A DNA stretch of 61,242 nucleotides from Streptacidiphilus neutrinimicus (GTDB lineage Bacteria; Actinomycetota; Actinomycetes; Streptomycetales; Streptomycetaceae), in contig NZ_BBPO01000011.1 in NCBI RefSeq assembly GCF_000787815.1, positions 49,050 through 110,291 of the forward strand. Reading direction: 5' to 3'. The number at the start of each line of letters is the position of its first letter. Position 1 is the first letter of the stretch. This document shows, piece by piece, positions 452-43,685 of this stretch. The notes beneath the pieces were generated by a model, which saw nothing but the letters and a program-made list of their open reading frames with translations, was not told the DNA's origin and ran no database searches. A program made the position numbers and the translations under genes.

Positions 452-465
452 AGGCCGAACGGCCG
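452..465. promoter_or_regulatory. OsdR/DosR-like box (AGGCCGAACGGCCG)
   Basis: This palindrome matches 10 of 12 fixed positions of the recurring GGGCCG-NN-CGGCCC box. Its centre is about 45 bp before the start of the 62-residue gene that opens the cytochrome b operon. Being closer to the start than the other boxes, it is a weaker case. Confidence 0.45.
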
Positions 466-502
466 CAGGCAGCCGTTCCGGCTCAGCAGGAGGAGGTGAA
501 GG

Positions 503-691
503 ATGATCAATCAGCTCTGGGGCGCGGTGTTCGACCTCGTGGGTGACGGCGGATTCCACGCCGCCACATTCAGTTGGTTCACCCTCAAGGTCGGCAATCT
601 CGTCGAGATGATCCTGGTGGTGCTGATCTTCGTCGCGGGGATGTTCGTCAAGCTGCCCGGCGGAAAGACCGAACCGTCGGAGGACGCATGA
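503..691 (+). CDS. Small single-pass membrane protein, first gene of the cytochrome b module
   Basis: This 62-residue protein has one clear hydrophobic segment (about residues 31-50, rich in V, L, I and F) followed by a short charged tail. A strong ribosome binding site (AGGAGG) lies just before the ATG. Its stop overlaps the start of the cytochrome b gene (ATGA), so the two are translationally coupled. I do not recognise a family. Position and size suggest a small structural or assembly subunit of the membrane complex encoded by the next two genes; that is inference. Confidence 0.7.
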   Translation: MINQLWGAVFDLVGDGGFHAATFSWFTLKVGNLVEMILVVLIFVAGMFVKLPGGKTEPSEDA

Positions 692-1407
692 GTATTCCGC
701 CGCCGAGCCCGGGCCGGGATCCGGTCACCGCCACCACAGGCACCGAGCCGTTCTCGTGGGTGCGGCCCAGCCCGTGGCTGCGGGGCTACCTGGTGCGCAA
801 TTTCCCGCTACGGAAACTGCTTCCCGACCGGGAGCCGGCCTACGTCTCCTCGGTGCTGTACACCATGGGCGTGCTGACCCTGGCGGCGCTCATCGTCACC
901 ATTCTCAGCGGCACGGTCATCGCGCTCGGCGGTGTGTCGTTCTGGCACACGAACACCTTCGGCGCGTTCATGAACAGCATTCACTTCTGGGGCGTGCAGG
1001 CCATGTTCCTGTTCATGGCCGTCCACTTCATCACGACCTTCTTCACCATGAGCTGGCGCGGCGGACGCGGGTGGACGTGGATCACCGGTGTCCTCGCGTT
1101 CATCGTCAGCATTCTGACGGCGTTCACCGGCTTCCTGATGATGACGAACTGGGACAGCCAGTGGATCGGCCAGCAGGCCAAGGACGCGTTCAACGCGATC
1201 GGCATCGGCGCCGTCTGGAACGTCATGAACGCGGGCCAGCAGTTCACCTTGCATGTGGTCGTCACCGTCGCGGTGCTGCTGTTCATCGTCTCCGCCCACA
1301 TCGGTCTCATCCGGCGCCGGGGCGTGGCGCCGCCGCCCGGCGCGGAGGCGCTGGAGGTCCCGGATGCGCCGGCCCAGCCCTCGGTCTCCGCGTCGAACCG
1401 GGGGTGA
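688..1407 (+). CDS. b6-type cytochrome b, N-terminal (four-helix) domain protein
   Basis: This 239-residue integral membrane protein resembles the N-terminal four-helix part of cytochrome b/b6, which holds two haems b and moves electrons across the membrane. Two helix pairs show histidine ligands: H-x13-H in the segment IHFWGVQAMFLFMAVH and H-x14-H in FTLHVVVTVAVLLFIVSAH. The 14-then-15 spacing is that of cytochrome b6 rather than mitochondrial cytochrome b. The quinol-oxidising C-terminal domain, a Rieske protein and any CxxCH cytochrome c are all missing nearby. The ATG start overlaps the previous stop; the next gene begins 10 nt downstream. The electron donor and acceptor are unknown. Confidence 0.85.
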   Translation: MSIPPPSPGRDPVTATTGTEPFSWVRPSPWLRGYLVRNFPLRKLLPDREPAYVSSVLYTMGVLTLAALIVTILSGTVIALGGVSFWHTNTFGAFMNSIHFWGVQAMFLFMAVHFITTFFTMSWRGGRGWTWITGVLAFIVSILTAFTGFLMMTNWDSQWIGQQAKDAFNAIGIGAVWNVMNAGQQFTLHVVVTVAVLLFIVSAHIGLIRRRGVAPPPGAEALEVPDAPAQPSVSASNRG

Positions 1408-1416
1408 GGAGGGGAA

Positions 1417-2559
1417 ATGGCAACGCCAACCCATGAGCCGACCAAGGCGCGCGCCAAGCGCCACCCGGTGGCCACCTGGCAAGGCCCCGAACGACGCTTC
1501 GACCTCATCACCGAGGGAACCGTCGCGGTCGCGGCGGTGGCCCTGCTGTGCATCCTCGCCGCCAGCCTGTGGGGGTCCCCCGACGGCGGGCTCACCTACC
1601 CGGGCGCACCCGCCTCCCCGCCGGGGCAGGCGTTCAGCGCCCGGTACTGGGACACGAACGACCCTTCCGACCTGGCCCAGACCGCCGTCCAGGAACTGCT
1701 CGGCGGGAGCAAGACAGCCGGTTACGGCCCCCCGTTCAACACCACCTCCGGGGCATCGCAGGAGTTCATCGGGATCCACCCCGCGGACATCGCGAAATCG
1801 ATCTTCGGCCTCACCCTCCCGATCAACACCGCCGACGACTTCGTCCTGGCCCCGGTCTCCCGACTCGTCGCACCCTTCGACTCCGCCGTCGCGCTGGCGG
1901 TCCGTCAGTACAAGCAAGCCGGCGGCGACCTGTCCCCCGGCGCATCGGCCGACCAGCTCGCCTCGGCCCGGCAGGCGACCTGGCTGAACAACTACGCCAA
2001 GGCGCTCGGGGCGTCGGGGGCGAGGTTCACCCCCATCACGGCCACGGTGCCGCCGGGCGACTACGGGCCCGTCCCGGTGATCATCCAGGCGGAACAGCGC
2101 ATCGCCTCCAACGGGAGCCTCGACGGGTACTTCCAGGGCAGCGATCAGCAGCTGACCACCGACACCACCATGGGGACCATGTTCTTCGGGGACGGCACTC
2201 TCTGGGGCACCGTCGCGACGGCGCAGGGCGTCGCCGGCGACCAGTGGGGCGTCATGAACGAACTGTGGGACTACCCGGGCCAGGTGTGGCTCTGGCTGTA
2301 TGCCGGGATGTACCAGATCCCCGCCTTGAACCCCTCCGGCAACGCCAACCTCGACCTCGACGTCGGCCTGCTCATGATCCTTTTCGGCTTCCTGCTGCCC
2401 ATGTTCGCGCCATGGATTCCGGGCGTCAACCGCATCCCCCGGTGGATCCCCCTCTACAAGATCATCTACCGCGACCACTACCGCAGCACGGGCGACAGGC
2501 GCCCGCCGGCACACGCGCCGAACAAGCCGGATGCCGAGCCGCCGAGCCATGCGACATAG
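1417..2559 (+). CDS. Membrane-anchored protein with large extracytoplasmic domain, cytochrome b partner
   Basis: This 380-residue protein has a cytoplasmic N-terminus (about 1-30), a membrane helix (about 33-53), a long polar region (about 54-310) rich in W, Y and G that should lie outside the membrane, a second helix (about 320-340) and a short basic tail. No CxxCH, Rieske or iron-sulfur motif is visible, and it is not the usual cytochrome b C-terminal domain. It is preceded by GAGGGGAA and follows the cytochrome b gene by 10 nt, so it is very likely the third subunit of the same complex. I do not recognise the family. Confidence 0.75.
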   Translation: MATPTHEPTKARAKRHPVATWQGPERRFDLITEGTVAVAAVALLCILAASLWGSPDGGLTYPGAPASPPGQAFSARYWDTNDPSDLAQTAVQELLGGSKTAGYGPPFNTTSGASQEFIGIHPADIAKSIFGLTLPINTADDFVLAPVSRLVAPFDSAVALAVRQYKQAGGDLSPGASADQLASARQATWLNNYAKALGASGARFTPITATVPPGDYGPVPVIIQAEQRIASNGSLDGYFQGSDQQLTTDTTMGTMFFGDGTLWGTVATAQGVAGDQWGVMNELWDYPGQVWLWLYAGMYQIPALNPSGNANLDLDVGLLMILFGFLLPMFAPWIPGVNRIPRWIPLYKIIYRDHYRSTGDRRPPAHAPNKPDAEPPSHAT

Positions 2560-2620
2560 TTCCGCCGTGACAAGCACCGTGGTCAGGGCGCGCGCGAGAC
2601 CCGGTTCGCGGGCGAGCGGG

Positions 2621-2863
2621 TCAGTCGGTCTCAGCCACGGTTTCGCTCCAGGCGTCCACGGTGGTCACCCCATCCTCGTAGGCGGCCAGGCAGGGCTGGC
2701 ACAGCTGCCCGGGCTCGATGCCGTCCTGAGTCATGTCGGCGATGGGGCGCATCTCTGCGATGGGCGAGAGCAGCCTGCGGCACAGGGCCGCCCCGTCGAG
2801 GTCGGGGACGACGTGCCAGCGCACAGCGGACCTGACTCCGTACTCAGCCTTCAACGCGACCAT
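2621..2863 (-). CDS. Conserved-looking hypothetical protein with CxxC motif
   Basis: About 80 residues if it starts at the ATG at 2863; the frame stays open to 2920. The sequence contains an LCRRLL helix-like segment and then QLCQPCLAAYEDG, a CxxC pair that could bind metal together with the earlier cysteine. It is soluble, with no membrane segment. It is convergent with the cytochrome module and divergent from the chloride channel gene, sharing the intergenic region that carries an OsdR-like box. Function unknown. The start is uncertain because the best GAGG lies about 13 nt upstream. Confidence 0.55.
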   Translation of the reverse strand: MVALKAEYGVRSAVRWHVVPDLDGAALCRRLLSPIAEMRPIADMTQDGIEPGQLCQPCLAAYEDGVTTVDAWSETVAETD

Positions 2864-2937
2864 GGCAGCCACCTGCCTCACAACGACCTGTGCGCCGGCT
2901 CCCTTCGACACTCCACCCACGTCAGGCTGCGGCGCGT

Positions 2938-2951
2938 GGGCTGACCGGCCC
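2938..2951. promoter_or_regulatory. OsdR/DosR-like box (GGGCTGACCGGCCC)
   Basis: Matches 11 of 12 fixed positions. It sits between divergent genes: about 117 bp before the chloride channel start and about 80 bp before the small CxxC protein start. Confidence 0.6.
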
Positions 2952-2958
2952 TTGCCTC

Positions 2959-2997: not shown

Positions 2998-3060
2998 GGA
3001 AGCCGGACAGTACGCCGCGCCTGGAAGGGAATCCCAGAGTGATCGGCTAGCATACGGAGG

Positions 3061-4413
3061 GTGACCGAGACAGGTGCTGGCACTGGCACCGCAGGCCCGG
3101 ATGCGGCAGCACTCCTCAGGTCCCGGAACTACGTCGCACTCCTGCTCCTGGGCGCCGTCATCGGTGTGCCCGTCGCGGCGGCGGCGTATTTCTACCTCAA
3201 GGCGGTAGGCGAGGCGCAGAAGTTCGTCTTCACGACCCTGCCCAAGGATCTCGGCTTTGCCGGCGAACCCGCTTGGTGGCCTCTGCTGCCGCTGGCATTG
3301 AGCGGCTTCGTGGTCGCCCTGAGCATCCGTCACCTACCGGGAACCTCTGGGCACAAGCCCGCTGAGGGGTTCAAGACGGGCAGCCGTGTCGAACCCGCTG
3401 ACCTCTACGGGATCCTCCTCGCCTCGCTCGCCACGCTCTGCCTCGGTGCGGTCCTCGGCCCTGAGGCGCCGTTGATCGCCCTTGGTGGCGGACTCGGCAC
3501 GCTCGCCGTACACCTACTCAAGCGCGACGCACCAGCCACGGCGACTGCGGTCATCGGTGCGGCCGGAAGCTTCGCGGCCGTCGCCACGCTTCTGGGCTCG
3601 CCCCTCACCGGAGCATTCCTGATCATGGAGGCCGCGGGCCTCAGCGGTCCGATGCTCGGCGTCATCCTGGTGCCGGGCCTGCTCGCCTCGGGAATCGGTG
3701 CGCTGATCTTCGTCGGCCTCGACAGATGGACCGGCTACGGCACCTTCAGCCTGGCGATCCCCCACATCCCCTCCTTCACCACGCCCGACGCGGCCGAGTT
3801 CCTCTGGGCCGTCGTCATCGGTCTCGTGGCGGCCTTCCTCGGCAGCGGCATCCGCCGGCTGGCCCTGCTGCTCCAGCCACGTGTCGAACGACGCATCCTC
3901 CTGCTGACACCGGCCGCCGGCCTGGCGGTGGCCGGGTGCGCCGTCGCCTTCGGCGAGGCGACCGGCCACAGCTCCTCCGAGGTCCTGTTCTCCGGCCAGA
4001 GCGCGTTGCCCGCCCTGGTGCAGAACGCCGCCGGTTGGACCGTGGGCGCACTGGTACTGGTGGTGCTGTTCAAGGGACTTGCCTACGGCATCTCGCTCAG
4101 CTGCTTCCGGGGCGGGCCGGTGTTCCCGAGCCTGTTCATCGGCGCGGCAGGCGGCATCGCCCTCTCCCACCTGCCGGGTCTTCCGATGATCGCGGGCGTC
4201 GGCATGGGGATCGGCGCCATGGCCGTGGCGATGCTGAGGCTCCCGTTGACCTCCGTGCTGCTGGCCAGTCTGCTTCTGGCGAGCGACGCACTCGCGCTCA
4301 TGCCTCTGGTCATCGTGGCGGTCGTGGTCGCCTACGTGACCGTCGCGAGGCTGGCACCGGCTGCGACGGCGCAGCCGGACGCCGACCGCACCGCAAAGCC
4401 CACGACAGCTTGA
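3061..4413 (+). CDS. ClC-type voltage-gated chloride channel / H+-Cl- exchanger
   Basis: This 450-residue polytopic membrane protein has ClC hallmarks: LGPEAPLIALGGG about residue 130 (the G(K/R)EGP-like anion site) and GGPVFPSLFIGAAGG about residue 350 (GxFxP selectivity segment). ClC proteins move chloride across the membrane, often coupled to protons. The GTG start sits directly against GGAGG, too close for a normal ribosome site. A TAGCAT hexamer at 3048-3053 would place the transcript start at or next to the GTG, so a leaderless mRNA is plausible. The upstream OsdR-like box puts it in the stress regulon. Confidence 0.9.
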   Translation: MTETGAGTGTAGPDAAALLRSRNYVALLLLGAVIGVPVAAAAYFYLKAVGEAQKFVFTTLPKDLGFAGEPAWWPLLPLALSGFVVALSIRHLPGTSGHKPAEGFKTGSRVEPADLYGILLASLATLCLGAVLGPEAPLIALGGGLGTLAVHLLKRDAPATATAVIGAAGSFAAVATLLGSPLTGAFLIMEAAGLSGPMLGVILVPGLLASGIGALIFVGLDRWTGYGTFSLAIPHIPSFTTPDAAEFLWAVVIGLVAAFLGSGIRRLALLLQPRVERRILLLTPAAGLAVAGCAVAFGEATGHSSSEVLFSGQSALPALVQNAAGWTVGALVLVVLFKGLAYGISLSCFRGGPVFPSLFIGAAGGIALSHLPGLPMIAGVGMGIGAMAVAMLRLPLTSVLLASLLLASDALALMPLVIVAVVVAYVTVARLAPAATAQPDADRTAKPTTA

Positions 4414-6004: not shown

Positions 6005-6778
6005 TCATTCCCCGTGGAACAGCCAGAGCGCGGGGACGCCGGCGACCACCGCGTAGGCGGCCAGGGCTGCGAGGTCGGCGCCGCTCCAGCCGAAGCCGAG
6101 CCACGGGTTCTGGACGGCGGTGACGAGGTGGGCGAGAGGCAGCGCACCGCCGACATCGCGCAGGCCTGTGGGCAGCACCGCGCGCGGAGGTGCGGTACCG
6201 GAGACGAGCCACAGGCTGAAGAACAACAACAGCCCGATGCCCTGGGCCGACCGGCTGGTGCGTATCACGGTCGCGAGCAGCAGTCCGATCGCTCCGAACG
6301 CGACAGCTCCGACGAGGAGAGCGACGGCGACGCCGAGCGCGTCCTTGGGGAGCGTGGTGTGATACGCGAGCCGCGCGACGACCGCCATCACGAGCGTGCC
6401 GGCCAGGCTTGTGGCGAGCGCGAGGGTCAGCTGCCCGGCGATGAGGGCCCGGGGTGGGACCGAGGAGGCCTTGAACCGTCGCAGGATGCCGCGCTCGCGG
6501 TAGCCGGCCAGGGTGATGGGGAGGGTCATCAGCCCGATGGCGGCGACGATCACGGCCGCCGACGCCGCCGCGTAGTAGTCGGCAGGGGTGACACCGCGCC
6601 ACACGAGCAGGCCGTTCTGGATCTTGTGAGCGTCGGCCTGGTTGTTCCCGAACACCGCCGCGAGCAGCATCATCATCATGAGCGGGAAGGCGAGGACGAA
6701 GACGACCGAGAAGGGTTCACGCCGGAAGAGTCGGAACTCGGTGCGGGTCATGGCGAGGTAGCCGCTCATCGTTGTCAC
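6005..6778 (-). CDS. ABC-2 type transporter permease
   Basis: This 257-residue membrane protein has six hydrophobic segments and the ABC2_membrane look: an N-terminal RTEFRLFRREPFSVVFVLAFPLMMMM helix, a long first loop, then GYRERGILRRFKAS before the middle helices, the motif typical of drug/polyketide exporters of the DrrB type. The GTG at 6778 overlaps the stop of the ATPase gene (GTGA), so both are made as a unit. It probably forms an efflux pump; the substrate is not predictable. Confidence 0.88.
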   Translation of the reverse strand: MTTMSGYLAMTRTEFRLFRREPFSVVFVLAFPLMMMMLLAAVFGNNQADAHKIQNGLLVWRGVTPADYYAAASAAVIVAAIGLMTLPITLAGYRERGILRRFKASSVPPRALIAGQLTLALATSLAGTLVMAVVARLAYHTTLPKDALGVAVALLVGAVAFGAIGLLLATVIRTSRSAQGIGLLLFFSLWLVSGTAPPRAVLPTGLRDVGGALPLAHLVTAVQNPWLGFGWSGADLAALAAYAVVAGVPALWLFHGE

Positions 6779-7680
6779 CGCCGGATGGCTCGGCCGGTCA
6801 GAGCGAGGAACGCGTCCTCGACGGTCGGGCGGTCCACGCGCAGGTCCCGCGGGACGATCCCGTGCGCGACGAGTTCGGACGCGACCAGCGCCAGCACCGG
6901 TCCGGCTCCACGGATCTCGACCGCGTCCCGGCGCCGTGTCATGGACTCCACTTCCTCCAGCTTCTCCAGCCAGGCCAGATCCGGTTCAGCGGTGCTGAAC
7001 CGGACGACCGAGGGCAGCTCCAGCCCGTCGATCAGCCCCTGCGGGGAGTCGAGCGCGACCAGTCGCCCGCCGTCGACGACGGCGACCCGGTCACAGAGGT
7101 GTTCCGCCTCGTCCATGAAGTGCGTGACCAGGACGACCGTGGTACCGCCGTGCCGGATCTCCCGGATCAGGTCCCAGGTCTCCCGCCGCGCCTGGGGGTC
7201 GAGGCCCTGCGTCAACTCGTCGAGGAACACCAACTCGGGCGAGTTCACGAACGCGAGCGCGATGAACAACCGCTGGCGCTGACCGCCGGAGAGGGAGTCA
7301 AACGCCTTGCTGCGCTGCTCCTCCAGGTGCCAGCGCGCCAGCAGTTCGTCGCGGTCGACGGGACGACGGGCGAAGGCGGCGAACAGCTCGACGGCCTCCG
7401 CGACCCTCAAACGGCCGGGCAGGGCGGAGTCCTGCAGCTGTGAGCCGATCCGCTGCCGCAGTTGGGCGGCCTGCGTCGTCGGGTCGAGCCCCAGGACCCG
7501 GATCGTCCCGCCGTCCGGGCGGCGAAGGCCCTGAACGCATTCGACGGTGGTCGTCTTGCCGGCGCCGTTCGGACCGAGAATCCCGAAGATCTCTCCCGGT
7601 TCGACATCGAACGACACGTCGTCGACAGCCACGAGCCGACGGTAGGTCTTCCGAAGATGGTCAACCGTGATCACGCTCAT
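6775..7680 (-). CDS. ABC transporter ATP-binding protein (DrrA-like)
   Basis: A 301-residue ATPase with Walker A (GPNGAGKTTT, about residue 38), signature SLSGGQRQR (about 135), Walker B and D-loop (LVFLDELTQGLDP; the usual DEPT is DELT here) and switch histidine (VLVTHFMDEAE). The C-terminal 80 residues resemble the DrrA/exporter regulatory domain. The ATG at 7680 begins the conserved MSVITVDHLRKTY. It is the first gene of the pair and diverges from the formate dehydrogenase operon; an OsdR-like box lies 36 bp upstream, possibly controlling both directions. Confidence 0.92.
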   Translation of the reverse strand: MSVITVDHLRKTYRRLVAVDDVSFDVEPGEIFGILGPNGAGKTTTVECVQGLRRPDGGTIRVLGLDPTTQAAQLRQRIGSQLQDSALPGRLRVAEAVELFAAFARRPVDRDELLARWHLEEQRSKAFDSLSGGQRQRLFIALAFVNSPELVFLDELTQGLDPQARRETWDLIREIRHGGTTVVLVTHFMDEAEHLCDRVAVVDGGRLVALDSPQGLIDGLELPSVVRFSTAEPDLAWLEKLEEVESMTRRRDAVEIRGAGPVLALVASELVAHGIVPRDLRVDRPTVEDAFLALTGRAIRR

Positions 7681-7715
7681 ACGGTCAGACTCGACCCGCC
7701 TCCACAGCACGGCTA

Positions 7716-7729
7716 GGGCCGGTGGTCCC
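7716..7729. promoter_or_regulatory. OsdR/DosR-like box (GGGCCGGTGGTCCC)
   Basis: Matches 10 of 12 fixed positions and lies between the divergent ABC transporter (start 7680) and formate dehydrogenase (start 7937) genes. Confidence 0.45.
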
Positions 7730-7936
7730 TGGTGAAGGGGCCACCCGCCGGGACGGACGGAGCCTCACGGGCCCCTGTCGACACGGCGAGTCGCGGTGGC
7801 TCGCGCCGCGGCCGAAGGCGACGGGCTCACCTGCCTGGCTCCGTCGGCTGCGCCTCCCAGCGCGCCGTCCGGCCGCTGGCGGCCGGGCGACCAGTTTGCG
7901 GATGCGAAGCCCGGGAGGCGTTCGGAGGATGGAGGT

Positions 7937-18098: not shown

Positions 18099-18229
18099 CT
18101 CGATCTTCCTTCCCGAACGGAAGCCTCCTGGCTCCGGGACGAGTCGCCCTCGGAACAGGAAGCTGTCACCCGATTCCAGCGTCGGCCGCGCGGCGCATGC
18201 GACGCAGCGGCCGGGCGGGCCACAGCGAT

Positions 18230-18243
18230 GGGCCGATGGTCCC
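18230..18243. promoter_or_regulatory. OsdR/DosR-like box (GGGCCGATGGTCCC)
   Basis: Matches 10 of 12 fixed positions. It lies between the divergent CBS-BON gene (start 18098) and the small plus-strand gene (start about 18329). Confidence 0.5.
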
Positions 18244-18328
18244 GCTCGACGAGCTCGCGGACCCCGGCGGGACACGGCCGGGTCATGCCTGCCCCGCGGC
18301 CCCGGTCGACGGGTCGTATGCTGCGCCC

Positions 18329-19895: not shown

Positions 19896-19970
19896 CACGG
19901 CCTCCTTGATCAGAGCGCCCCCGTGCTCCCGCCCTGAGTCCAGTGCGCCACGGAGGTCCAGGCTCGGGAA

Positions 19971-19984
19971 GGGCCGGACGACCC
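19971..19984. promoter_or_regulatory. OsdR/DosR-like box (GGGCCGGACGACCC)
   Basis: Matches 11 of 12 fixed positions; centred about 82 bp before the universal stress protein start at 19895. A second box lies 69 bp further upstream. Confidence 0.5.
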
Positions 19985-20039
19985 TGCGGGACTGCCGAGC
20001 GTCCCCCGTCCTCGGATGTGCCTGCCGGCCCCGCGACGG

Positions 20040-20053
20040 GGTCCGTTCGGCCC
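20040..20053. promoter_or_regulatory. OsdR/DosR-like box (GGTCCGTTCGGCCC)
   Basis: Matches 11 of 12 fixed positions; about 151 bp before the leftward universal stress protein gene and 136 bp before the rightward CBS-BON gene. Confidence 0.6.
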
Positions 20054-20083
20054 ATCACACGAAACCGGTACCGACGGACCGTG

Positions 20084-21393: not shown

Positions 21394-21488
21394 GCCTTCA
21401 TGCAACGGCCCGGGCGGACGTACGGCCACCCGGGGCGTCCTCCGGAGCCAGTCCAGTCCCGTGCGCGGTGCCGACCGGGCATCTTCCG

Positions 21489-21502
21489 GGGACCAACGGC
21501 CC
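21489..21502. promoter_or_regulatory. OsdR/DosR-like box (GGGACCAACGGCCC)
   Basis: Matches 10 of 12 fixed positions. It lies between the small acidic protein gene (start 21393) and the universal stress protein gene (start 21693). Confidence 0.45.
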
Positions 21503-21692
21503 ACGCGCACCCGCTGCGGCTCGGTCAGTGTGGATACCGGACACCTTGGAGTCCGACGGAGTCAGGGCCGTCCCTGCGTGCGGTGACGGCCCGAGTGTGT
21601 CGTACGGCAAGGTCTCCTCGGACGGCAAGGCATGACGAAGCGGAACGGCGTTGGCGGGGGTCGGAGGACCACTCGGCGACAGGAGACGCCCT

Positions 21693-25982: not shown

Positions 25983-26078
25983 GGCTGCCTCCCGGTCAGC
26001 GGCGCAGGGTGGGGGGTGTTCGCCTTCTGCTGATCCCCTTCCCCACCCACCGTGGGCTTCCAGGTGACCGCCGCGCAT

Positions 26079-26092
26079 GGGCCGTTCGGCCC
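26079..26092. promoter_or_regulatory. OsdR/DosR-like box, perfect (GGGCCGTTCGGCCC)
   Basis: Matches all 12 fixed positions, and the dyad extends by one base each side (TGGGCCG-TT-CGGCCCA). It is about 103 bp before the PEP synthase start. Confidence 0.7.
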
Positions 26093-26193
26093 ACGGCTCG
26101 TCCCTCGCGGGCCCGCCTTCCGACGGGTGACGCGGCGCTTCCCGGTTCAGCATGGTCTTCGGACGCCACACGGACGGACAGCTGAGGAGCCCA

Positions 26194-26652
26194 CCGCTCG
26201 TCAACAACGCCGGCCTGGGGCCCCATCCGCCGCTCGACCAGGTCGATCCCGCCGATTTCCGCGCGGTTCTGGAGCTCAACACGGTCGCTCCGCTGGTGGT
26301 CATGCAAGCCGTCCTGCCCGTCATGCGCGCCCAGCGGTCCGGTGCGATCGTCAACGTCAGCTCGGCCACTGCCCGGATGGTCCTGCCGGGAATCGGCGCC
26401 TACGCCTCCAGCAAGGCCGCAGTGGACATGCTCTCGGCCGTCGCCCGCCGCGAACTGGCCCCTGAGGGCATCACGGTCTCGACCGTCCATCCCTCCTTGA
26501 CCGCCACCGAGTTCCACCAGCACCTGCGCGCCGGACAGATCCTGCCCGCCGCGACCCGCCGCCCCGCGGACCGTGCCGACCACGTCGCCGCTGTGATCCT
26601 GGAGCTGATCCGCACGGGTGAGGCGGAGGCGACGTCCACGGCCGACGCGTGA
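26194..26652 (+). pseudogene. Short-chain dehydrogenase, N-terminally truncated
   Basis: Recognisable SDR sequence begins at LVNNAGLG and continues through IVNVSSATA and the catalytic YASSK to a normal C-terminus. The first 80-90 residues, including the NAD-binding TGxxxGxG, are missing; upstream sequence (open from 26152) is unrelated. It cannot bind cofactor and is read as a remnant. It sits between the divergent PEP synthase promoter and a convergent universal stress protein gene. Confidence 0.8.
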
Positions 26653-27595: not shown

Positions 27596-27744
27596 GACGA
27601 TCAACTCCTTGAAGGACCGCCCGGGGAGACGGCGAGCAGGCCATCGGGCGCCACTTCGCCGGCTCCCCGGCGAAACCGGTCGAGTCGGCATCGGACTGTG
27701 TGAGCCCTGCTCCCATGCTGGTCGGGTGACCGCCCCGGCGGAAT

Positions 27745-27758
27745 GGGCCGACCGGCCC
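27745..27758. promoter_or_regulatory. OsdR/DosR-like box, perfect (GGGCCGACCGGCCC)
   Basis: Matches all 12 fixed positions; between the divergent universal stress protein (start 27595) and M50 protease (start 27874) genes. Confidence 0.7.
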
Positions 27759-27873
27759 CTGCCTCGCCGCCCGGAAGGGCGGCTCGGCGGGCGGGTCGGC
27801 CCTGCCGCTCGCGAGCGGCGCGGCGGAGCCTTGGACCACGTCGGTCATGGTGATCCCGAAGGACGGTGCCGCG

Positions 27874-28641
27874 ATGTCGGAGTTCAGGAGCCCGGCCCAG
27901 GGGCGGGGTGGAGAGCCCGGGCCGTTCCGCTCGGCCGTGCCCTTCGGGCGTGTCTTCGGAGTCCCCTTGCGGCTTCACTGGAGCGCGCCGCTGCTGGTCG
28001 TCCTGCTCGGGTTCAGCCTCGGTGCGGGTACGCTGCCGGCCTGGGCGCCGGGCCGTTCCCACGCCACCTACGCGCTGGCCGGCACAGCAGGAGCGTTGCT
28101 GCTGTTGGCGAGCCTGCTGCTGCACGAGGGAGCGCACGCCGTCGTCGCCCGGCGCGCCGGAGTCCAGGTGCAGGACATGACGGTCTGGGCACTGGGCGGC
28201 GCGACGCTCATGGGCCGTGCCGACCAGCCGCGCTCAGCCTTCAAGATCGCCGTCGCGGGCCCGTTGACCAGCCTGGTACTCGGCGGGCTCAGTCTGGGCG
28301 CCGCCGCGGGTCTGCTCCGCGGCGCGCACTGGACCGTACCCGGCCTCGAGGGACGCCCGACCGGTGTCGTCTCGCTGCGCCGACTGGCGCAGGTTCCGTC
28401 CGACGCCCGGCATCTCACCCGGGTCTCCCAGGTGGCGCAGCCGATCGCGCGCACGCCGGTCGCAGGCCCCGACGAGGACCTGGCGGACGTGCTGCAACGC
28501 CTGACGCCGGGCATGCCGCTGCGGATCCTGGTCATGGACGGCGGGCAGCTCGCCGGCATCGTCACCGCCCACGACGTCTCACGTCACCTCCAGCGACGCC
28601 TGGCGCTCACCCGCCCGGGGCTCGGCCCCGGTGCCTTCTGA
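27874..28641 (+). CDS. Rv2625c-like M50 protease with CBS domain, internally deleted
   Basis: A 255-residue membrane protein with three hydrophobic helices and the zinc-binding HEGAH (HExxH) about residue 88. Rv2625c, a DosR-regulon site-2-type protease, has about 393 residues, with a later LDG motif giving the third zinc ligand and two CBS domains. Here the sequence jumps from LLRGAHWTVPGLEG straight into GRPTGVVSLRRLAQVP, the end of the first CBS, then a complete second CBS (ILVMDGGQLAGIVTAHDVSR). The LDG motif is gone, so proteolysis is doubtful. The ATG at 27874 follows GAAGGACGG. Confidence 0.85.
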   Translation: MSEFRSPAQGRGGEPGPFRSAVPFGRVFGVPLRLHWSAPLLVVLLGFSLGAGTLPAWAPGRSHATYALAGTAGALLLLASLLLHEGAHAVVARRAGVQVQDMTVWALGGATLMGRADQPRSAFKIAVAGPLTSLVLGGLSLGAAAGLLRGAHWTVPGLEGRPTGVVSLRRLAQVPSDARHLTRVSQVAQPIARTPVAGPDEDLADVLQRLTPGMPLRILVMDGGQLAGIVTAHDVSRHLQRRLALTRPGLGPGAF

Positions 28642-33361: not shown

Positions 33362-33372
33362 GGGCACCGAAC

Positions 33373-33386
33373 GGGCCGACCGGCAG
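33373..33386. promoter_or_regulatory. OsdR/DosR-like box (GGGCCGACCGGCAG)
   Basis: Matches 10 of 12 fixed positions; about 100 bp before the small basic protein at 33481. A weaker similar element, GGGCCGACGGGACC, lies at 33394-33407. Confidence 0.45.
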
Positions 33387-33480
33387 CGCCCCAGGGCCGA
33401 CGGGACCTCCCCAGCGGCCCCGCCCAGAGGGCATGGTGAACGTACCGGCTGACGGACCGGCCGACGGAGGGTGGAACGCG

Positions 33481-33669
33481 ATGAATGCCAAGTACCGTCT
33501 CGCAGCCAGTCGCCGGGCCGCGCACCGCCGACGCAGACGCGACGTCGAGGGAGACCCGGACCTGCTGGCGCTGTTGCGCGCGGCAGCGGCCATCGGACGG
33601 CCGCGGCCGGAGCCGGATCCCTCAGCGCGGCGGTCTGGACCCATGGATCCGGCCCGTCGGCGGTTCTGA
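33481..33669 (+). CDS. Small arginine-rich protein
   Basis: A 62-residue very basic protein: KYRLAASRRAAHRRRRRDVEG, a short helix DPDLLALLRAAAAIG and a proline/arginine tail. GGAGGGTGG precedes the ATG at a good distance. It could bind nucleic acid, but no family is recognised. It has its own OsdR-like box upstream and converges on the universal stress protein operon. Confidence 0.55.
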   Translation: MNAKYRLAASRRAAHRRRRRDVEGDPDLLALLRAAAAIGRPRPEPDPSARRSGPMDPARRRF

Positions 33670-36742: not shown

Positions 36743-37597
36743 TCACCAGTGGGGGACGACGGCGACGGGACAGCTCGCGTGGTGGACAGCGGCATGGACG
36801 ACCGGTCCCAGCGCGGACACCGGGCGGTGTCTGCGTCGACCGACGACCAGCAGCGATGCCTTCTCGGCCTCCTCGACGAGAACCGCCGCAGGGTCCCCCG
36901 ACAGCTCGGCGATCGTCACCTCGACGGCGGGGAAGTGGTTGTGTGCCGACGTCACCGCCTCACGCAGGCGGTGGGCATGATGCCGCTCGACCTCGAGCCG
37001 CTCGGACTCGCCTGGCTGCTCCGGACGCGCGCCCCAGAGCGGGGGCGGCTGCCAGACGTGCACCGCCCGCAGCACGACTCCGTGTTCGTGCGCGTGGTGC
37101 AGCGCGAAGTCCAGGACTGGACGGCAGTCCCCGTCGGGATCCACGCCGGCGACGATCCGATATCCGGGTCCGGATTCGGCAGCGCGCTGGGGCACGAGGA
37201 CGACCGGCTGTTCGGCCCTCGCCGCCACCGACTGGGCGACCGAGCCAAGCAGCAACGCCTGGAAGCCGCCGTTGCCGCGGGTGCCCAGCACCAGCGTCCC
37301 GGCCTGGTCGGCGCTGCGCAGCAGCGTGAGGTCCACCGCTCCGTCGACCGTCTCGATGTCGACGCGCAGCGCGGGGTGCGCCTGGTGCAGATCCGCGGCG
37401 AGACGCGTCATCGCCTGCAGGGCAGCGCGTTCGTCTTCCCGGATCCGTTCGTCTCCGGGGCGGGCCCGGAAGCCGGTCGGCCGCACATGGATCAACCGCA
37501 CGTTGCGGCCGCTGGCGGCGGCCTCGCGCCCGGCCCAGTCGGCTGCGGTGAGGCTCGCGTCGGAGCCGTCCACGCCGACGATCAGCGGAGAGGTCAT
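36743..37597 (-). CDS. Tandem universal stress protein, first gene of a six-gene operon
   Basis: A 284-residue protein with two UspA domains. The first is canonical (LIVGVDGSDASLTAADWAG, GTRGNGGFQALLLGSV); the second ends GRRRHRPVSALGPVVHAAV, with GP instead of G(S/T). It leads the operon USP / HTH-split barrel / DUF1918 / CBS-BON / USP / USP, all closely spaced or overlapping. An OsdR-like box lies 133 bp upstream, just beyond a terminator hairpin that isolates it from the alcohol dehydrogenase gene. Confidence 0.9.
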   Translation of the reverse strand: MTSPLIVGVDGSDASLTAADWAGREAAASGRNVRLIHVRPTGFRARPGDERIREDERAALQAMTRLAADLHQAHPALRVDIETVDGAVDLTLLRSADQAGTLVLGTRGNGGFQALLLGSVAQSVAARAEQPVVLVPQRAAESGPGYRIVAGVDPDGDCRPVLDFALHHAHEHGVVLRAVHVWQPPPLWGARPEQPGESERLEVERHHAHRLREAVTSAHNHFPAVEVTIAELSGDPAAVLVEEAEKASLLVVGRRRHRPVSALGPVVHAAVHHASCPVAVVPHW

Positions 37598-37723
37598 GGC
37601 CCGGAGTCCCTTCCGTTGGGCCCGTCAGGCGGGCCCGGTTCCTCCCGTCCACGTGGACGCCCCCAGGGCGTCACCAGCGGATGGCTCACCTCCCAGCGTT
37701 CGCGCCACCCACGGTGATGGACA

Positions 37724-37737
37724 GGGCCAACCGGCCC
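37724..37737. promoter_or_regulatory. OsdR/DosR-like box (GGGCCAACCGGCCC)
   Basis: Matches 11 of 12 fixed positions; about 133 bp before the USP start at 37597. Confidence 0.6.
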
Positions 37738-37768
37738 CTACTGCGTCGCTCCCCACCCCCGTGCCACA

Positions 37769-37792: not shown

Positions 37793-37801
37793 CTCCCAGC
37801 G

Positions 37802-37815
37802 GGTCCGACCGGCCC
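37802..37815. promoter_or_regulatory. OsdR/DosR-like box (GGTCCGACCGGCCC)
   Basis: Matches 11 of 12 fixed positions. No intact rightward gene follows; the nearest rightward coding trace is the USP remnant at 37855. Confidence 0.5.
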
Positions 37816-37854
37816 TCCCACCACGCCCGAGCCGCGCCGCACTGGGCCGCCGGC

Positions 37855-38019: not shown

Positions 38020-39063
38020 TCAGGTCCGGAACAGGGCGACCTTGAGCGCGCCGCTGCCCTCGGCGTCCGCGAAGACGTCGTACGCCTCCTGCATCTCGTC
38101 GAGGCCGAAGCGGTGGGTCACCAGGCCCTCGGTGTTCAGGCGTCCGGCGGCGAGCATCTCCAGCAGCATCGGGGTGGTGCGGGTGTCGACCAGGCCGGTG
38201 GTGAGGGTGACGTCACGGATCCACAGGTCCTCCAGGTGCAGTACCGCCGGGCGGCCGTGCACGCCGACGTTGGCGACGTGCCCGCCGGGGCGCACCGCCG
38301 CGGCGCACAGTTCGAAGGTCTCCGGGATACCGACCGCCTCGATGGCGACGTCGACGCCGAGGCCGTCGCGGGTGAGCTCGCGGAGGGCTTCGGGGGTCGC
38401 CTCCGCGGCGCTGAGCGCGAGGTCCGCGCCGAGGCGCTTGGCCGCGTCACGGCGGCTCGCCGCCGGGTCGACGACGACGATCCGCCCGGGGCTGTAGAGC
38501 TGCGCGGTCATGACTGCGGCGAGCCCGATCGGGCCGGCGCCCACGATGACGACCGTGTCGCCGGGCTTCACCTGCCCGTTGAGCACGCCGACCTCGAAGG
38601 AGGTCGGCAGGATGTCCGCCAGCAGCAGCGCGCTCTCGTTGGTCACCGGCTCCGGGAGCTTGTGCAGCGAGTTGTCCGCGAACGGCGTGCGCACGTACTC
38701 GGCCTGGGCGCCGTCCACCAGGTGGCCGAGGATCCAGCCGCCGCCCCCGGTGCACTGGCCGAACGCACCGGTGCGGCAGTACGCGCAGCGCCCGCACGCC
38801 GAGATGCAGGACACCAGCACGCGGTCGCCGACCGCGACGGTCCGCACGCCGTCCCCGACGGAGACGACGGTGCCGACGGCCTCGTGGCCCAGGATGCGGC
38901 CGACCTCGACCTCCGGCACGTCTCCCTTGAGGATGTGCAGGTCGGTACCGCAGATGGTGACGGCGTCGACGCGGACCACCGCGTCCTCGGGGTCGCGGAC
39001 CACGGCGTCCGGGACCTCGTCCCAGACGCGGCGGCCAGGGCCGTGGTAGGTGAGTGCCTTCAT
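38020..39063 (-). CDS. Zinc-dependent alcohol dehydrogenase
   Basis: A 347-residue medium-chain dehydrogenase: catalytic zinc cysteine in TICGTDLHILKGD, the GHEAVGTVVSVG segment, the structural zinc site CGRCAYCRTGAFGQC, and the NAD-binding VVIVGAGPIGLAAVMTAQL followed by VVDP. It oxidises alcohols or reduces aldehydes with NAD(P). A zinc ADH is also part of the S. coelicolor OsdR region. Three OsdR-like boxes lie upstream, the nearest perfect one 222 bp from the ATG. Confidence 0.92.
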   Translation of the reverse strand: MKALTYHGPGRRVWDEVPDAVVRDPEDAVVRVDAVTICGTDLHILKGDVPEVEVGRILGHEAVGTVVSVGDGVRTVAVGDRVLVSCISACGRCAYCRTGAFGQCTGGGGWILGHLVDGAQAEYVRTPFADNSLHKLPEPVTNESALLLADILPTSFEVGVLNGQVKPGDTVVIVGAGPIGLAAVMTAQLYSPGRIVVVDPAASRRDAAKRLGADLALSAAEATPEALRELTRDGLGVDVAIEAVGIPETFELCAAAVRPGGHVANVGVHGRPAVLHLEDLWIRDVTLTTGLVDTRTTPMLLEMLAAGRLNTEGLVTHRFGLDEMQEAYDVFADAEGSGALKVALFRT

Positions 39064-39278
39064 GTCCGATCACCCTCCAGTGATGGTCCGTCGAAGCCGG
39101 GACTAGCCAGGACAGGGTCGGGACAGGCGGTGCCACCGGTGAGGGCATGCAGCCACGTGCCGACGATCGTTGTGGATCGCGGCCGAGGCCGGCGTTCCCC
39201 CTGGTATCCCGGTCCCTGTGCCTCCCAGCGTTCAGCGTCACCCACCACGGGTCATGAGCCGGTACGGCCCTGCCGAGG

Positions 39279-39292
39279 GGGCCGACCGGCCC
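39279..39292. promoter_or_regulatory. OsdR/DosR-like box, perfect (GGGCCGACCGGCCC)
   Basis: Matches all 12 fixed positions; 222 bp before the alcohol dehydrogenase start, so a long leader or a more distant site is implied. Confidence 0.65.
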
Positions 39293-39351
39293 TTAAGGCA
39301 CCATCAGCGCACCAGCTCCCCCGGGCAGCGATCGCTCTCGGCCCCAGGGCC

Positions 39352-39365
39352 GGGCCGTCAGGCCC
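39352..39365. promoter_or_regulatory. OsdR/DosR-like box (GGGCCGTCAGGCCC)
   Basis: Matches 11 of 12 fixed positions; the first of a close pair with the box at 39371. It points toward a rightward USP remnant as much as toward the alcohol dehydrogenase. Confidence 0.5.
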
Positions 39366-39370
39366 GCCCT

Positions 39371-39384
39371 GGGCCGGTCAGCCC
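39371..39384. promoter_or_regulatory. OsdR/DosR-like box (GGGCCGGTCAGCCC)
   Basis: Matches 11 of 12 fixed positions and is the exact reverse complement of the box at 2938-2951. It starts 19 bp after the previous box, a spacing that would place two dimers on the same side of the helix if about 20 bp is two turns. Confidence 0.5.
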
Positions 39385-39473
39385 TCGGGTTCGACCTGAA
39401 GCAGTGCTGAGCCTGGAGGTGTTCCTTCGGCGAAGCCGCAGGGCCGCCGAGATCCCACCGCAAGCACACGCGG

Positions 39474-39566: not shown

Positions 39567-39575
39567 AGCCCCGAG

Positions 39576-39644: not shown

Positions 39645-39657
39645 TTCGCGCGTCCGC

Positions 39658-40281
39658 TCAGGCCGCTTGCACGGTCTGGACGCGGACGTCCACGACGCCT
39701 GGCACACCCTCCAGCAGCCGGGTCAGCACCGCCGGACCGGGCTCCTCCGGGATGGGGCCGGAGAGGCGCACCACGCCCTCCGCCACGCCGATGTCGATCC
39801 CCGCCGCGGCCTGCGGGCCCATCGCGGCGAGGAGCTCGAAGCGCACGTGGCGGGCCACGTCGTCGTCGCCTCGAAGGAAGATCTTCAGGACGTCGGCGCG
39901 GCTGACGATCCCGCGCAGGTGTCCGTCGGCGTCGACCACCGGGAGGCGCTTGACCTTGCGCAGCAGCATCGCCCGTGCGGCCTCGGCCAGCGGCGCCCAG
40001 GGGTGGACGGCCACGGCCGGGGTGCTCATCAGCCCGCCGGCAGTCAGGGCGCTCCCCTCCCGAGGCGCGCTCCCGTCAGGCAGCTCCGCCGCGAGGACGT
40101 CCGACTCCGACACCACTCCGATCACCCGCCCGTCACCTGCCACGACCGGCAGTGCGCTGACGCGGCGGGTGTGCAAGATGTCCACGATCTCGTCGATCCC
40201 GGCGTCGCGGCCTACCGCTGCGACGGCGTGGGTCATCACATCGGCGACCGTGCCGCCGCTCCACACACTCTGCATGGTCAT
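39658..40281 (-). CDS. CBS-CBS-BON domain protein
   Basis: A 207-residue protein: CBS1 (DVMTHAVAAVGRDAGIDEI ... VIGVVSESDVLAAEL), CBS2 (LMSTPAVAVHPWAPLAEAA ... LRGIVSRADVLKIFL) and a shortened BON domain (IGVAEGVVRLSGPIPEEPGPA). The ATG at 40281 follows GGAGG. It diverges from the DevR/OsdR-like regulator gene, with a box between the two. Confidence 0.9.
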   Translation of the reverse strand: MTMQSVWSGGTVADVMTHAVAAVGRDAGIDEIVDILHTRRVSALPVVAGDGRVIGVVSESDVLAAELPDGSAPREGSALTAGGLMSTPAVAVHPWAPLAEAARAMLLRKVKRLPVVDADGHLRGIVSRADVLKIFLRGDDDVARHVRFELLAAMGPQAAAGIDIGVAEGVVRLSGPIPEEPGPAVLTRLLEGVPGVVDVRVQTVQAA

Positions 40282-40437
40282 GGTGGTTGCCTCCTGCGCT
40301 ATCGCTTGTGCTCGCACTCGCGACGAGGTCGCTGTGAGACCAGGGTGGCGCGGGTGGGGCTTCGGCCGCCTGAGCCGGGCGGGGCAGAGCGGCCAGACGG
40401 TCGGCCCGTGCCGAGCAGTACCGATCGCGCGATGATG

Positions 40438-40451
40438 GGACCGAACGGCCC
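40438..40451. promoter_or_regulatory. OsdR/DosR-like box (GGACCGAACGGCCC)
   Basis: Matches 11 of 12 fixed positions; 107 bp before the response regulator start and 163 bp before the divergent CBS-BON start. It suggests autoregulation. Confidence 0.6.
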
Positions 40452-40550
40452 TATCAGTGGTCCAGCCCCGGGGGCGACGATCCTTTCGACTCCCTGCACT
40501 CGTGGCAGACGGGACCCGGGCAGGGCGGATCCGAGACATGAGGTAGAGGG

Positions 40551-41270
40551 ATGACGGGCGAATTCTCCGGCGCTCCGGCTGCCGACACCATCCGGGTCTT
40601 CCTGCTGGACGACCACGAGGTGGTCCGCCGGGGCGTGCACGACTTGCTCGAAGCCGAGCCAGGCCTGGAGGTGGTCGGTGAGGCCGGGACTTGTGCGCAG
40701 GCGCTGGCCCGGGTCCCGGCGCTGCGCCCCGACGTCGCGGTCCTGGACGTGCGCCTGCCGGACGGGGACGGAATCAGTGTCTGTCGCGAACTCCGTTCCC
40801 TACTGCCCGAACTCGCCTGCCTGATGCTGACGTTGTTCGACGACGAGGACGCCCTGCTGGACGCCATCATGGCCGGGGCCTCGGGCTACGTCCTCAAACA
40901 GATCAACGGGACAGACCTGATCTCGGCGGTGCGTACCGTCGGTGCAGGCCAGTCCATGCTCGACCCGGGAGCGGCCACCCGGCTCATGGCCCGCCTGCGC
41001 GGTCAGGCCACCCAGCCGACACAACCACCGGATGCCCTGGCCGAGCTGACGGACCGCGAGCGGGACATCCTGGGCCTCATCGGCGAGGGACTGACCAACC
41101 GTGAGATCGGCCAGCGCCTCTACATGGCGGAGAAGACGGTCAAGAACCACATCTCCCGCATGCTCGCCAAGCTCGGAGTGGAGCGCCGGGTCCAGGCCGC
41201 CGTGATCGCCTCCGAGGCCGCCGCGCGCGACGCCGGCACGCACGGCTCTGCGCGGTCCGGCGGGGCCTGA
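40551..41270 (+). CDS. DevR/DosR/OsdR-like NarL-family response regulator
   Basis: A 239-residue protein. Receiver domain (about 14-130): acidic pair in [20 protein letters not shown], phospho-acceptor aspartate in [13 protein letters not shown], threonine in LMLTLF and lysine in YVLKQ. LuxR-type HTH (about 165-225): [20 protein letters not shown], then [25 protein letters not shown]. The sequence closely follows mycobacterial DevR and S. coelicolor OsdR throughout, which control hypoxia/NO dormancy regulons. No DevS/OsdK kinase is next to it or in the window. It probably binds the repeated palindrome and controls the island. Confidence 0.93.
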
Positions 41271-41305
41271 CATCCGGAAGCCGGGCACCGGCCGCCGCTC
41301 CGAGG

Positions 41306-41857: not shown

Positions 41858-41890
41858 GGTCAGCTCCTCGGGTGCAGGGTCGTTCAAGGG

Positions 41891-42619: not shown

Positions 42620-42655
42620 GTCCTGCCGCCTCCTTCCTGTGCCGATTGGCTGGGC

Positions 42656-42859
42656 TCAGCGCACCAGGACGCGCTCGCCGGAGCGCGGCACCACGGCGTT
42701 CCAGCCGAGCTCGTGCCGGATCCGGTCGCGCAGCCGCTGCGCGCCCCCCGGCTCGCCGTGGACCAGATAGACCGTGTGCGGCGGTTCGGGCGCTCCGCGC
42801 AGCCAGGCGAGGACCTCCTGCTCACGGAGACCACCTGCTTCCCGGGCCTTGCGGGCCAC
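42656..42859 (-). pseudogene. C-terminal remnant of an MBL-fold (RNA-metabolising type) hydrolase
   Basis: About 60 residues (EVLAWLRGAPEPPHTVYLVH, then GEPGGAQRLRDRIRHELGWN) match the C-terminal RMMBL tail of beta-CASP metallo-beta-lactamases. The HxHxDH metal domain is entirely absent. Genes of this family appear in DosR-type islands, so this is probably a former member lost by deletion. Confidence 0.7.
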
Positions 42860-42955
42860 GTCAAGAACTCGTCCACCCTGCTTCGCCGGCCACCGGTCGG
42901 CTCGGCCCGGGCCGTCCCTTGCGCAGGAGCTACCGGCCCTTGGTCGGAGCGCTGC

Positions 42956-43558
42956 TCAGGGGCGGGACCAACGGGGCTCATAGACCCGCCACTCCTTTTC
43001 CCATGCCTCCTGGTCGCGGCGGTCGAGTCGGGAGCGCGCGATCGCGCCGGCGCCCAGCAGCACCGCGTCCGCTCCGACCATCACGAGCAGCGCCGACAGG
43101 GCTGCGGTGCTGACGAGGTTCGCCGTCGTGGCCGGCCCAGTGGACAGATTCCCCGCCGGGTCGAGCCAGATCCGAACGTGGCCCCCGACTCGCTCGGAGG
43201 CCGCCACTTCGACGCTGCCTTGATGCGTCGTGCCGTCCGCGGCGGTCCAACTCACCTGCGCCATGTCACCACCCACACCGGCCGGGTACGGCTGGCCGAC
43301 GACACGGGCCTGCACCGGACGCAGACCTCGCTCCACCTGCTGGGCGTGCGTGCGTCCCTGCTGAAAGAGCGACAATCCGAGCAGCGCACACAGAACCGTC
43401 ACCGCGACCAGCGCCAGCGCCTGAACCTCCAGCAGCGCTGAGCGCCACCGGTCGCTGGGCCGCCGCAGCACGCTGTGACGGCGCGCACGCGCCATGGCCA
43501 GAAGCGAACGACTCGGAGCTCCGGCGGACGGACGAGGATCGGCTGCGGGCGCGGCCAT
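42956..43558 (-). CDS. Rv1733c-like membrane protein
   Basis: A 200-residue protein with two membrane helices: about 48-68 (VQALALVAVTVLCALLGLSL) and about 145-170 (AALSALLVMVGADAVLLGAGAI), with an extracytoplasmic domain between (VERGLRPVQARVV ... VSWTAADGTTHQGSVEVAA ... VRIWLDPAGNLSTGP). This is the layout of Rv1733c, a DosR-regulon antigen of unknown function. The ATG at 43558 follows GGAGGGCAG. An OsdR-like box is 121 bp upstream. A degenerate copy of its 5' region is at 71-195. Confidence 0.87.
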   Translation of the reverse strand: MAAPAADPRPSAGAPSRSLLAMARARRHSVLRRPSDRWRSALLEVQALALVAVTVLCALLGLSLFQQGRTHAQQVERGLRPVQARVVGQPYPAGVGGDMAQVSWTAADGTTHQGSVEVAASERVGGHVRIWLDPAGNLSTGPATTANLVSTAALSALLVMVGADAVLLGAGAIARSRLDRRDQEAWEKEWRVYEPRWSRP

Positions 43559-43646
43559 CGGACTGCCCTCCTTCGGTGCCTGCGATGCCCTACGCGCGGC
43601 TGACTGCACCGCTACGACAAGGCTCGCCACGCCGACCCGATCCCGA
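43522..43646. repeat. Copy B of the Rv1733c-like 5' region repeat
   Basis: This stretch, covering the first 12 codons and most of the leader of the Rv1733c-like gene, is closely matched at 71-195. It also lies beside GGACC-AGCC-GGTCC (43649-43662), a perfect inverted repeat with DosR-like geometry. Confidence 0.7.
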
Positions 43647-43671
43647 CAGGACCAGCCGGTCCCCACCAGGT

Positions 43672-43685
43672 CCGCCGAACGGCCC
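43672..43685. promoter_or_regulatory. OsdR/DosR-like box (CCGCCGAACGGCCC)
   Basis: Matches 10 of 12 fixed positions; 121 bp before the Rv1733c-like start. It is the rightmost box I found. Confidence 0.5.

Follow-up and report, generated by a model that had tools for sequence, protein, structure and literature searches.

The window, the whole 61,242-nucleotide stretch analysed here, corresponds to positions 49050-110291 of one contig in the 8.42-Mb, 184-contig genome of Streptacidiphilus neutrinimicus. Its first 43.7 kb form an island of genes encoding universal stress proteins (USP), CBS-BON proteins, a phosphoenolpyruvate (PEP) synthase, an Acg/Rv3131-type nitroreductase, an alcohol dehydrogenase, and flavodoxin-like and Rv2632c-like proteins, a gene set typical of what a DosR-like region should contain; the window holds six Usp-domain genes (PF00582). 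Upstream of many, not all, of these genes recurs a palindrome that, judged by its sequence, is the OsdR box AGGGCCGATCGGCCCT, published before for Streptomyces coelicolor (PMC5069765), and a response regulator of the OsdR/DevR type is encoded at 40551. This is an already published, conserved regulatory system, of which Streptacidiphilus is a new member; we found no literature joining Streptacidiphilus and OsdR. An earlier reading of the DNA letters (hereafter the sequence-only reading) had joined about 20 promoters into one regulon by the palindrome and left the prior publication of box and regulon unmentioned. We consider it very probable that the boxes are sites of an OsdR/DevR-type regulator activating a DosR-like hypoxia and dormancy stress regulon.

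The features are given below by coordinates, strand (none for the palindromic boxes), and description. Scores in bits come from the matrix introduced after the list. ANNNT designates a promoter-like element, and its offset is the position of its A counted in bases after the box.

451..466: box, 10.9 bits, weaker; before the genes at 503-2559 (+; a small open reading frame [ORF], a cytochrome-b-like gene, and an unknown one); without ANNNT
2937..2952: box, 13.2 bits; between a small-protein gene (2621-2863, -) and a ClC channel gene (3061-4413, +; start at 3166 in a later model); ANNNT on both sides
7715..7730: box, 15.7 bits; ANNNT at 24 toward the ABC transporter genes (6775-7680, -, and 6005-6769, -)
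18229..18244: box, 10.7 bits; CBS-BON gene 17424-18098 (-); ANNNT at 47
19970..19985: box, 14.0 bits; 82 bp upstream of USP gene 18999-19895 (-)
20039..20054: box, 12.6 bits; CBS-BON gene 20182-20865 (+); ANNNT at 24
21488..21503: box, 11.6 bits; USP gene 21693-22574 (+); ANNNT at 24
26078..26093: box, 14.8 bits, exact palindrome; PEP synthase/pyruvate phosphate dikinase (PPDK)-like gene 23607-25982 (-); ANNNT at 25
27744..27759: box, 15.2 bits; USP gene 26699-27595 (-); ANNNT at 25
27788..27803: box overlooked earlier, 13.2 bits; M50-peptidase/CBS gene 27847-28641 (+); ANNNT at 24
33372..33408: paired boxes at 33372 and 33393, 7.4 and 13.1 bits, 21 bp apart; ANNNT at 25 from the second; upstream of ORF 33481
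33481..33669 (+): small ORF of 62 aa, passed over by the gene caller; no Pfam match
37723..37738: box, 14.9 bits; USP gene 36743-37597 (-); ANNNT (AACGCTGG) at 24
37801..37816: second box, 14.9 bits, 78 bp farther upstream of USP gene 36743-37597
39256..39293: paired boxes, 8.6 and 18.7 bits, 22 bp apart, with AACGCTGG; ANNNT at 25 and 47; alcohol dehydrogenase gene 38020-39063 (-)
39351..39385: further boxes, 9.6 and 13.2 bits, 19 bp apart; ANNNT at 47 toward the alcohol dehydrogenase gene and at 25 toward the + side
40437..40452: box, 16.1 bits; between a CBS gene (39658-40281, -) and osdR; ANNNT at 25 toward osdR (predicted autoregulation)
40551..41270 (+): OsdR/DevR-type response regulator, 239 aa (Pfam Response_reg and GerE, i.e., receiver and LuxR-type helix-turn-helix [HTH] domains)
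43671..43686: box, 9.4 bits; upstream of unknown-protein gene 42956-43495 (-); ANNNT at 47

The recurrence of the palindrome is real and the regional contrast is strong. We scanned about a tenth of the genome with a 16-bp matrix made from 25 distinct S. coelicolor sites (Table 1 of PMC5069765, where most of them are predictions; none was discarded for its score), using gene models and starts from an ad hoc gene caller. The control consisted of 31 stretches elsewhere in the genome, whose round-number coordinates were fixed ahead of matrix scoring, though with the locations of the exact sites already known. It excluded loci L090, L093, L094, and L151 as well as L154-L179, the 26 loci retrieved because they contain an exact site, and retained the flanking stretches L089, L091, and L092. 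Intergenic matches of at least 12 bits numbered 13 in 8,574 positions of the island (window 1-43,700) against 3 in 98,006 control positions (Fisher test, odds ratio about 50, p about 3e-12); the corresponding counts in coding DNA were 2 in 35,126 and 6 in 505,285. With 300 column-permuted palindromic matrices, the intergenic matches of the island averaged 0.25 and never exceeded 4. We used this independent matrix because plain-pattern statistics are powerless at 72% GC: the pattern with up to three mismatches, by which the palindrome had been described, shows no enrichment, with 326 matches in the window where 333 are expected (63 of 100 shuffles reach the observed count). A matrix scan against background, proposed by the sequence-only reading as a check, thus came out in its favour for intergenic DNA over the control stretches, but exact palindromes are not enriched genome-wide (33 copies versus 46 of the backwards-read pattern).

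Each of the 20 palindromes reported earlier is present at its position, and 17 of them score at least 9 bits. Twelve reach 12 bits and five lie between 9 and 12 (452, 18230, 21489, 39352, 43672). The remaining three are background-like, namely 33373 (7.4 bits, partner of a stronger box), 35105 (6.4), and 28699 (below 6). Site 13812 falls inside a predicted coding 3' end. Strong sites that had been overlooked are the intergenic 27789 (13.2 bits) and 33394 (13.1) and the coding 15363 (12.4). We rejected boxes 13811 and 15362 as sites: both lie in predicted coding DNA and lack ANNNT, and the G008 relatives of the genes concerned have no box of at least 9 bits. Most sites were said to stand 80-150 bp before a start codon; this fits 7 of the 13 strong intergenic boxes in the correct direction, the others being at 42-80 or 211-315 bp. 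Over about 90 loci, in a set restricted to 30-250 bp by construction, the median distance from box to start is 102 bp (quartiles 86-132). The last 17.5 kb of the window (43.7-61.2 kb) had been offered as an internal control of equal composition and without comparable sites. The absence holds (no match of at least 12 bits in 3,881 intergenic positions, and none even at 8 bits), but the base composition is similar rather than equal, with GC in 2-kb bins of 68-71% at 0-8 kb, 70-76% at 8-44 kb, and 69-72% beyond.

The boxes are conserved outside the window. We assembled 108 loci around osdR homologues, comprising 80 named loci and 28 from this and same-genus genomes; the two groups are not wholly independent, since three of the named loci (L001-L003) duplicate stretches of G008, G002, and G004. 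The 291,012 intergenic bases contain 318 boxes of at least 12 bits, the 1,360,815 coding bases 33 (1.09 versus 0.024 per kb). Such boxes precede 66 of the 80 named osdR genes and 14 of the 15 osdR-type genes of this and same-genus genomes. In other Streptacidiphilus islands, homologous promoters often keep the box position. The five promoters listed as homologous to that of USP gene 36743-37597 all have boxes (one being the genome's own copy on contig C181), and in 4 of the 5 they form a pair spaced by 77-78 bp. Homologues of the unknown gene 42956-43495 in eight islands have boxes 150-340 bp upstream, at 183-185 bp in six of them. The G008 orthologue of CBS-BON gene 17424-18098 has a 13.6-bit box 96 bp upstream. 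Orthologues of USP gene 18999-19895 show weaker boxes only (9.4-11.4 bits), and box 21488 has a counterpart at one of three homologous (51-53%) promoters. The nitroreductase gene at 28787 has only a 6.7-bit box nearby, and its relative on C181 has two strong ones.

The claim that ORF 40551 is OsdR/DevR-like was borne out by its domains, by its best PDB match (Mycobacterium tuberculosis DevR, 3c3w, E 9.4e-80), by its placement in a supported clade of 14 Streptacidiphilus OsdR rows (100/98) in a tree using 51 of the 108 rows, and by the box before its own gene. It scores 193.6 bits against the MadR response regulators (NCBIfam NF047785), below the threshold of 300. The genome has a second OsdR on contig C181, 87% identical to ORF 40551 and with an identical recognition-helix segment. 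It lies 1.3 kb from a divergent OsdK-like kinase gene (C181:37431-39176, 583 aa, GAF-GAF-HisKA_3-HATPase). The next OsdK-like gene, 44% identical, is on contig C168, and a third regulator paralogue (66%) is on contig C113. Of the 14 same-genus genomes, 11 have an osdR-type gene at E <= 1e-70 and three (G000, G002, G008) have at least two copies. The adjacency of osdR and osdK is variable among the named loci and is absent from the window, and we therefore classed the system by box and regulator. The published box, the OsdR/DevR-like regulator with a box of its own, and the boxes at orthologous promoters in other Streptacidiphilus together support the regulon interpretation put forward by the sequence-only reading.

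Several observations concern the surroundings of these regulator genes. The second box-rich island (L093:9507-19958, on C181) has 10 intergenic matches of at least 10 bits in its locus and contains osdR, the OsdK-like kinase gene, USP genes, and a nitroreductase gene 85% identical to that of the window. A 116-aa ORF of L093 resembles a remnant of a 916-aa acetyltransferase/CoA-ligase gene (residues 808-915 match at 60%; the start is similar by eye). Just upstream of the window, L090:17741-18994 (-) encodes a 417-aa GAF-GAF protein that resembles OsdK in its sensor half but has no kinase domains, and sits behind a pyridoxamine-oxidase-like gene bearing its own OsdR box.

A second regularity lies in the distance between the box and a promoter-like element. 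After masking of the boxes, ACGCTGG was enriched upstream (28 of 390 box-bearing versus 31 of 1,558 boxless sequences), and in 28 of its 29 occurrences a box of at least 4 bits ends 23-25 or 44-47 bases before it. In an unbiased count over all offsets, the wider ANNNT has its A at base 24 after the box in 90 of 472 flanks and at base 25 in equally many (z about 26 over a base rate of 2.1%), with further peaks at offsets 46 and 47 (z about 10); boxes between divergent genes enter this count twice. The peaks are present separately in same-genus islands and in named loci, two groups that here too have L001-L003 in common, and smaller peaks recur at identical offsets on the opposite strand (z 11-14), an effect expected from shared boxes. 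Within the genome's own islands, 17 of the 36 intergenic boxes of at least 9 bits have ANNNT at 24 or 25, against a mean of 2.5 boxes and a maximum of 6 for other adjacent offset pairs, and 25 have it at any of the four offsets; the 10 coding boxes all lack it. In 9 of 18 listed cases the T is followed by GG. Boxes are also spaced relative to each other: 73 of the 209 partner counts at 12-60 bp, which include pairs of two strong boxes twice, fall at 21-23 bp, with small peaks at 14 and 32 bp. Two other candidate elements were discarded. A fixed-distance TANNNT -10 was absent by the cut-off of a first scan and reached 4 of 30 at offset 23 in a later one, ANNNT having emerged after box masking; GTGGGTG, seen by eye, was weak and unphased (17 of 390 versus 36 of 1,558 sequences).

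The fixed spacing suggests a promoter activated by OsdR in which ANNNT serves as the -10 and the -35 falls at the margin of the proximal box, as in class II activation. In its sequence geometry, with ANNNT at 24 or 25 and box pairs at 21-23 bp, the layout is of the DevR type: PMC3029386 reports that M. tuberculosis DevR sites are closely packed and that the proximal one overlaps the -35. The spacing also allows a direction to be assigned at most boxes between divergent genes, with a fit on both sides at 2937. Box 7715 appears to point to the ABC transporter genes rather than to the formate dehydrogenase genes (7796, +). The long ORF of the latter is 66 bp away from the box, but ANNNT is found only in the opposite direction, and we therefore do not claim them as a target; a literature search for OsdR and formate dehydrogenase gave, by title, only plant papers. 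The pair 33372/33393 sits between two convergent genes and points to ORF 33481-33669. This ORF has relatives in Streptacidiphilus anmyonensis (L002/L144, the same organism; 92% identity over 50 aa) and in L139 (75% over 52), and at the S. anmyonensis counterpart the boxes are again paired but weaker (7.4 and 8.9 bits, 22 bp apart) and accompanied by the octamer CATGGTGA. On the + side of boxes 39351..39385 we searched for a gene and found none. By the joint presence of a box of at least 9 bits and ANNNT, the window has about 14 predicted OsdR promoters instead of some 20.

We infer the following course of events. The GAF-GAF sensor kinase OsdK, probably the C181 copy (the second OsdK-like gene being that on C168), would phosphorylate OsdR in response to hypoxia. 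Phosphorylated OsdR would then bind the palindromes and activate the USP, CBS, PEP synthase, and alcohol dehydrogenase genes together with osdR. The putative -10-like element is weak and GC-rich, an ANNNT often followed by GG, with its A at base 24 or 25 counted from the proximal box; given an assumed 17-bp spacer, the -35 hexamer would directly adjoin the box or share a single base with it. Another box lying one step of 21-23 bp upstream may serve cooperative binding. That the Streptomycetaceae share a strict OsdR promoter grammar of this form (box, 23 or 24 bases, GC-rich ANNNT often with GG, optional second box 21-23 bp upstream), which tells the activated one of two divergent genes and reveals unannotated small genes, and that in Streptacidiphilus two near-identical OsdR copies share their boxes, a distant OsdK serving the orphan copy, is a combination we hold to be somewhat better than even. 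The spacing rule across Streptacidiphilus and named Streptomycetaceae loci and the second, nearly identical regulator copy are the newer points, the literature check on the former being limited.

Some results weigh against this account. ANNNT was not found at the expected offsets of boxes 19970 and 37801, and other strong boxes also lack it, including the strongest (L093 11333, 20.5 bits). No box of at least 12 bits occurs within about 450 bp of 14 of the 80 named osdR genes (in L049, 41 positions were scannable), and in other islands the scanned stretch of several homologous promoters is free of boxes of at least 9 bits. Three of the 14 same-genus genomes have no osdR-type gene at the E-value used. 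The window has no OsdK homologue, and the osdR gene at 40551 has no neighbouring kinase. The protein comparison of ORF 40551 covered DevR and named Streptomyces homologues.

Among the alternatives, the one that survives best is that the boxes are served mainly by the C181 OsdR, with the copy at 40551 acting as an orphan modulator or competitor. The high identity of the C181 copy, its proximity to the kinase gene, its own box-rich island, and the shared recognition-helix segment all fit this possibility. So does a review (PMC9739842) reporting that S. coelicolor OsdK phosphorylates the orphan regulator SCO3818 in vitro, a precedent for an orphan regulator fed from afar. However, the 40551 copy has intact receiver and HTH domains, a box of its own, and no sign of inactivity, and we regard this division of labour as possible but doubtful. 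A binder other than OsdR, either the C113 paralogue or another NarL-family regulator, seems very improbable to us. The C113 helix also contains EKTVKN and the genome has 82 related stretches listed, but the box is present before osdR-type genes and missing before 12 of the 13 lower-identity (62-69%) paralogues, C113 included; the one that has it is L124 (69%, with a kinase neighbour), the other 12 being 62-67% identical. That the boxes are chance palindromes of a 72% GC genome, as the unenriched plain-pattern counts and the location of 15 of the 26 exact copies outside the two islands in predicted coding DNA would allow and as is conceivable for most of the isolated exact matches in other places, can practically be dismissed for the island given the intergenic clustering, the permuted matrices, the recurrence at orthologous promoters, and the phased ANNNT.

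Three known systems come closest. PMC5069765 describes the OsdKR regulon of S. coelicolor (SCO0203/SCO0204), with a box derived by MEME across 12 species and gel shifts with S. coelicolor OsdR in which base changes in the box weakened binding. The system here shares with it the 16-bp box, the box before osdR itself, and an island around osdR that contains USP, PPDK/PEP synthase, nitroreductase, zinc alcohol dehydrogenase, and pyridoxamine oxidase-like genes. It differs by an osdR away from osdK, by a second osdR with its own island, and by the promoter spacing described here; unlike in the S. coelicolor regulon, no nitrate reductase turned up in the Pfam scan, which covered 45 of the 63 gene models of the window. 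With the DosR/DevR regulon of M. tuberculosis the likeness lies in DevR as the closest solved relative and in the USP and Rv3131-type (Acg) nitroreductase genes. The DosR box is GGGAC..GTCCC, a resemblance already pointed out by the sequence-only reading, whereas the box here is GGGCCG..CGGCCC, the -10-like element is GC-rich, and no sensor kinase is linked in the window. The paralogues at 62-67% identity, which we presume to be of the SCO3818 type from the neighbourhood of that gene, are likewise DevR-like orphans, but they fall outside the OsdR clade (5 tree rows) and none of the 12 has a box.

A published dormancy regulon was thus recovered from an unaided reading of raw sequence, and its range is extended to Streptacidiphilus. 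The promoter grammar is testable in these soil relatives of the tuberculosis dormancy system, and the natural duplication of the regulator provides a setting for studying the cross-talk of one kinase with two regulators.

Candidate targets also occur outside the islands, with strong boxes before a phosphoketolase gene (L169:2500-2515, ANNNT at 25) and before a ferric-reductase-like gene (L178:2500-2515, without ANNNT). The small-protein gene at 2621-2863 (-) belongs to a family of 63-80 aa (LKAEYE..WHVVP) with members in L160, L156, L141, and L172; OsdR boxes stand close to the gene in the window and in L160 and L156. In the window, Rfam at gathering scores gave no match and ARAGORN found no tRNA. 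The formate dehydrogenase alpha gene contains a perfect 56-bp tandem duplication (10373-10484), and its domains are divided over two ORFs (9610-10449 and 10446-12356), for which mutation and assembly error are both possible. The short-chain dehydrogenase gene at 26152-26652 (+), matched by Pfam only from position 81 of 195, is probably a remnant. The 67-aa piece at 42656-42859 (-) contains no part of a metallo-hydrolase except its C-terminal RMMBL domain and has matches in three related islands.

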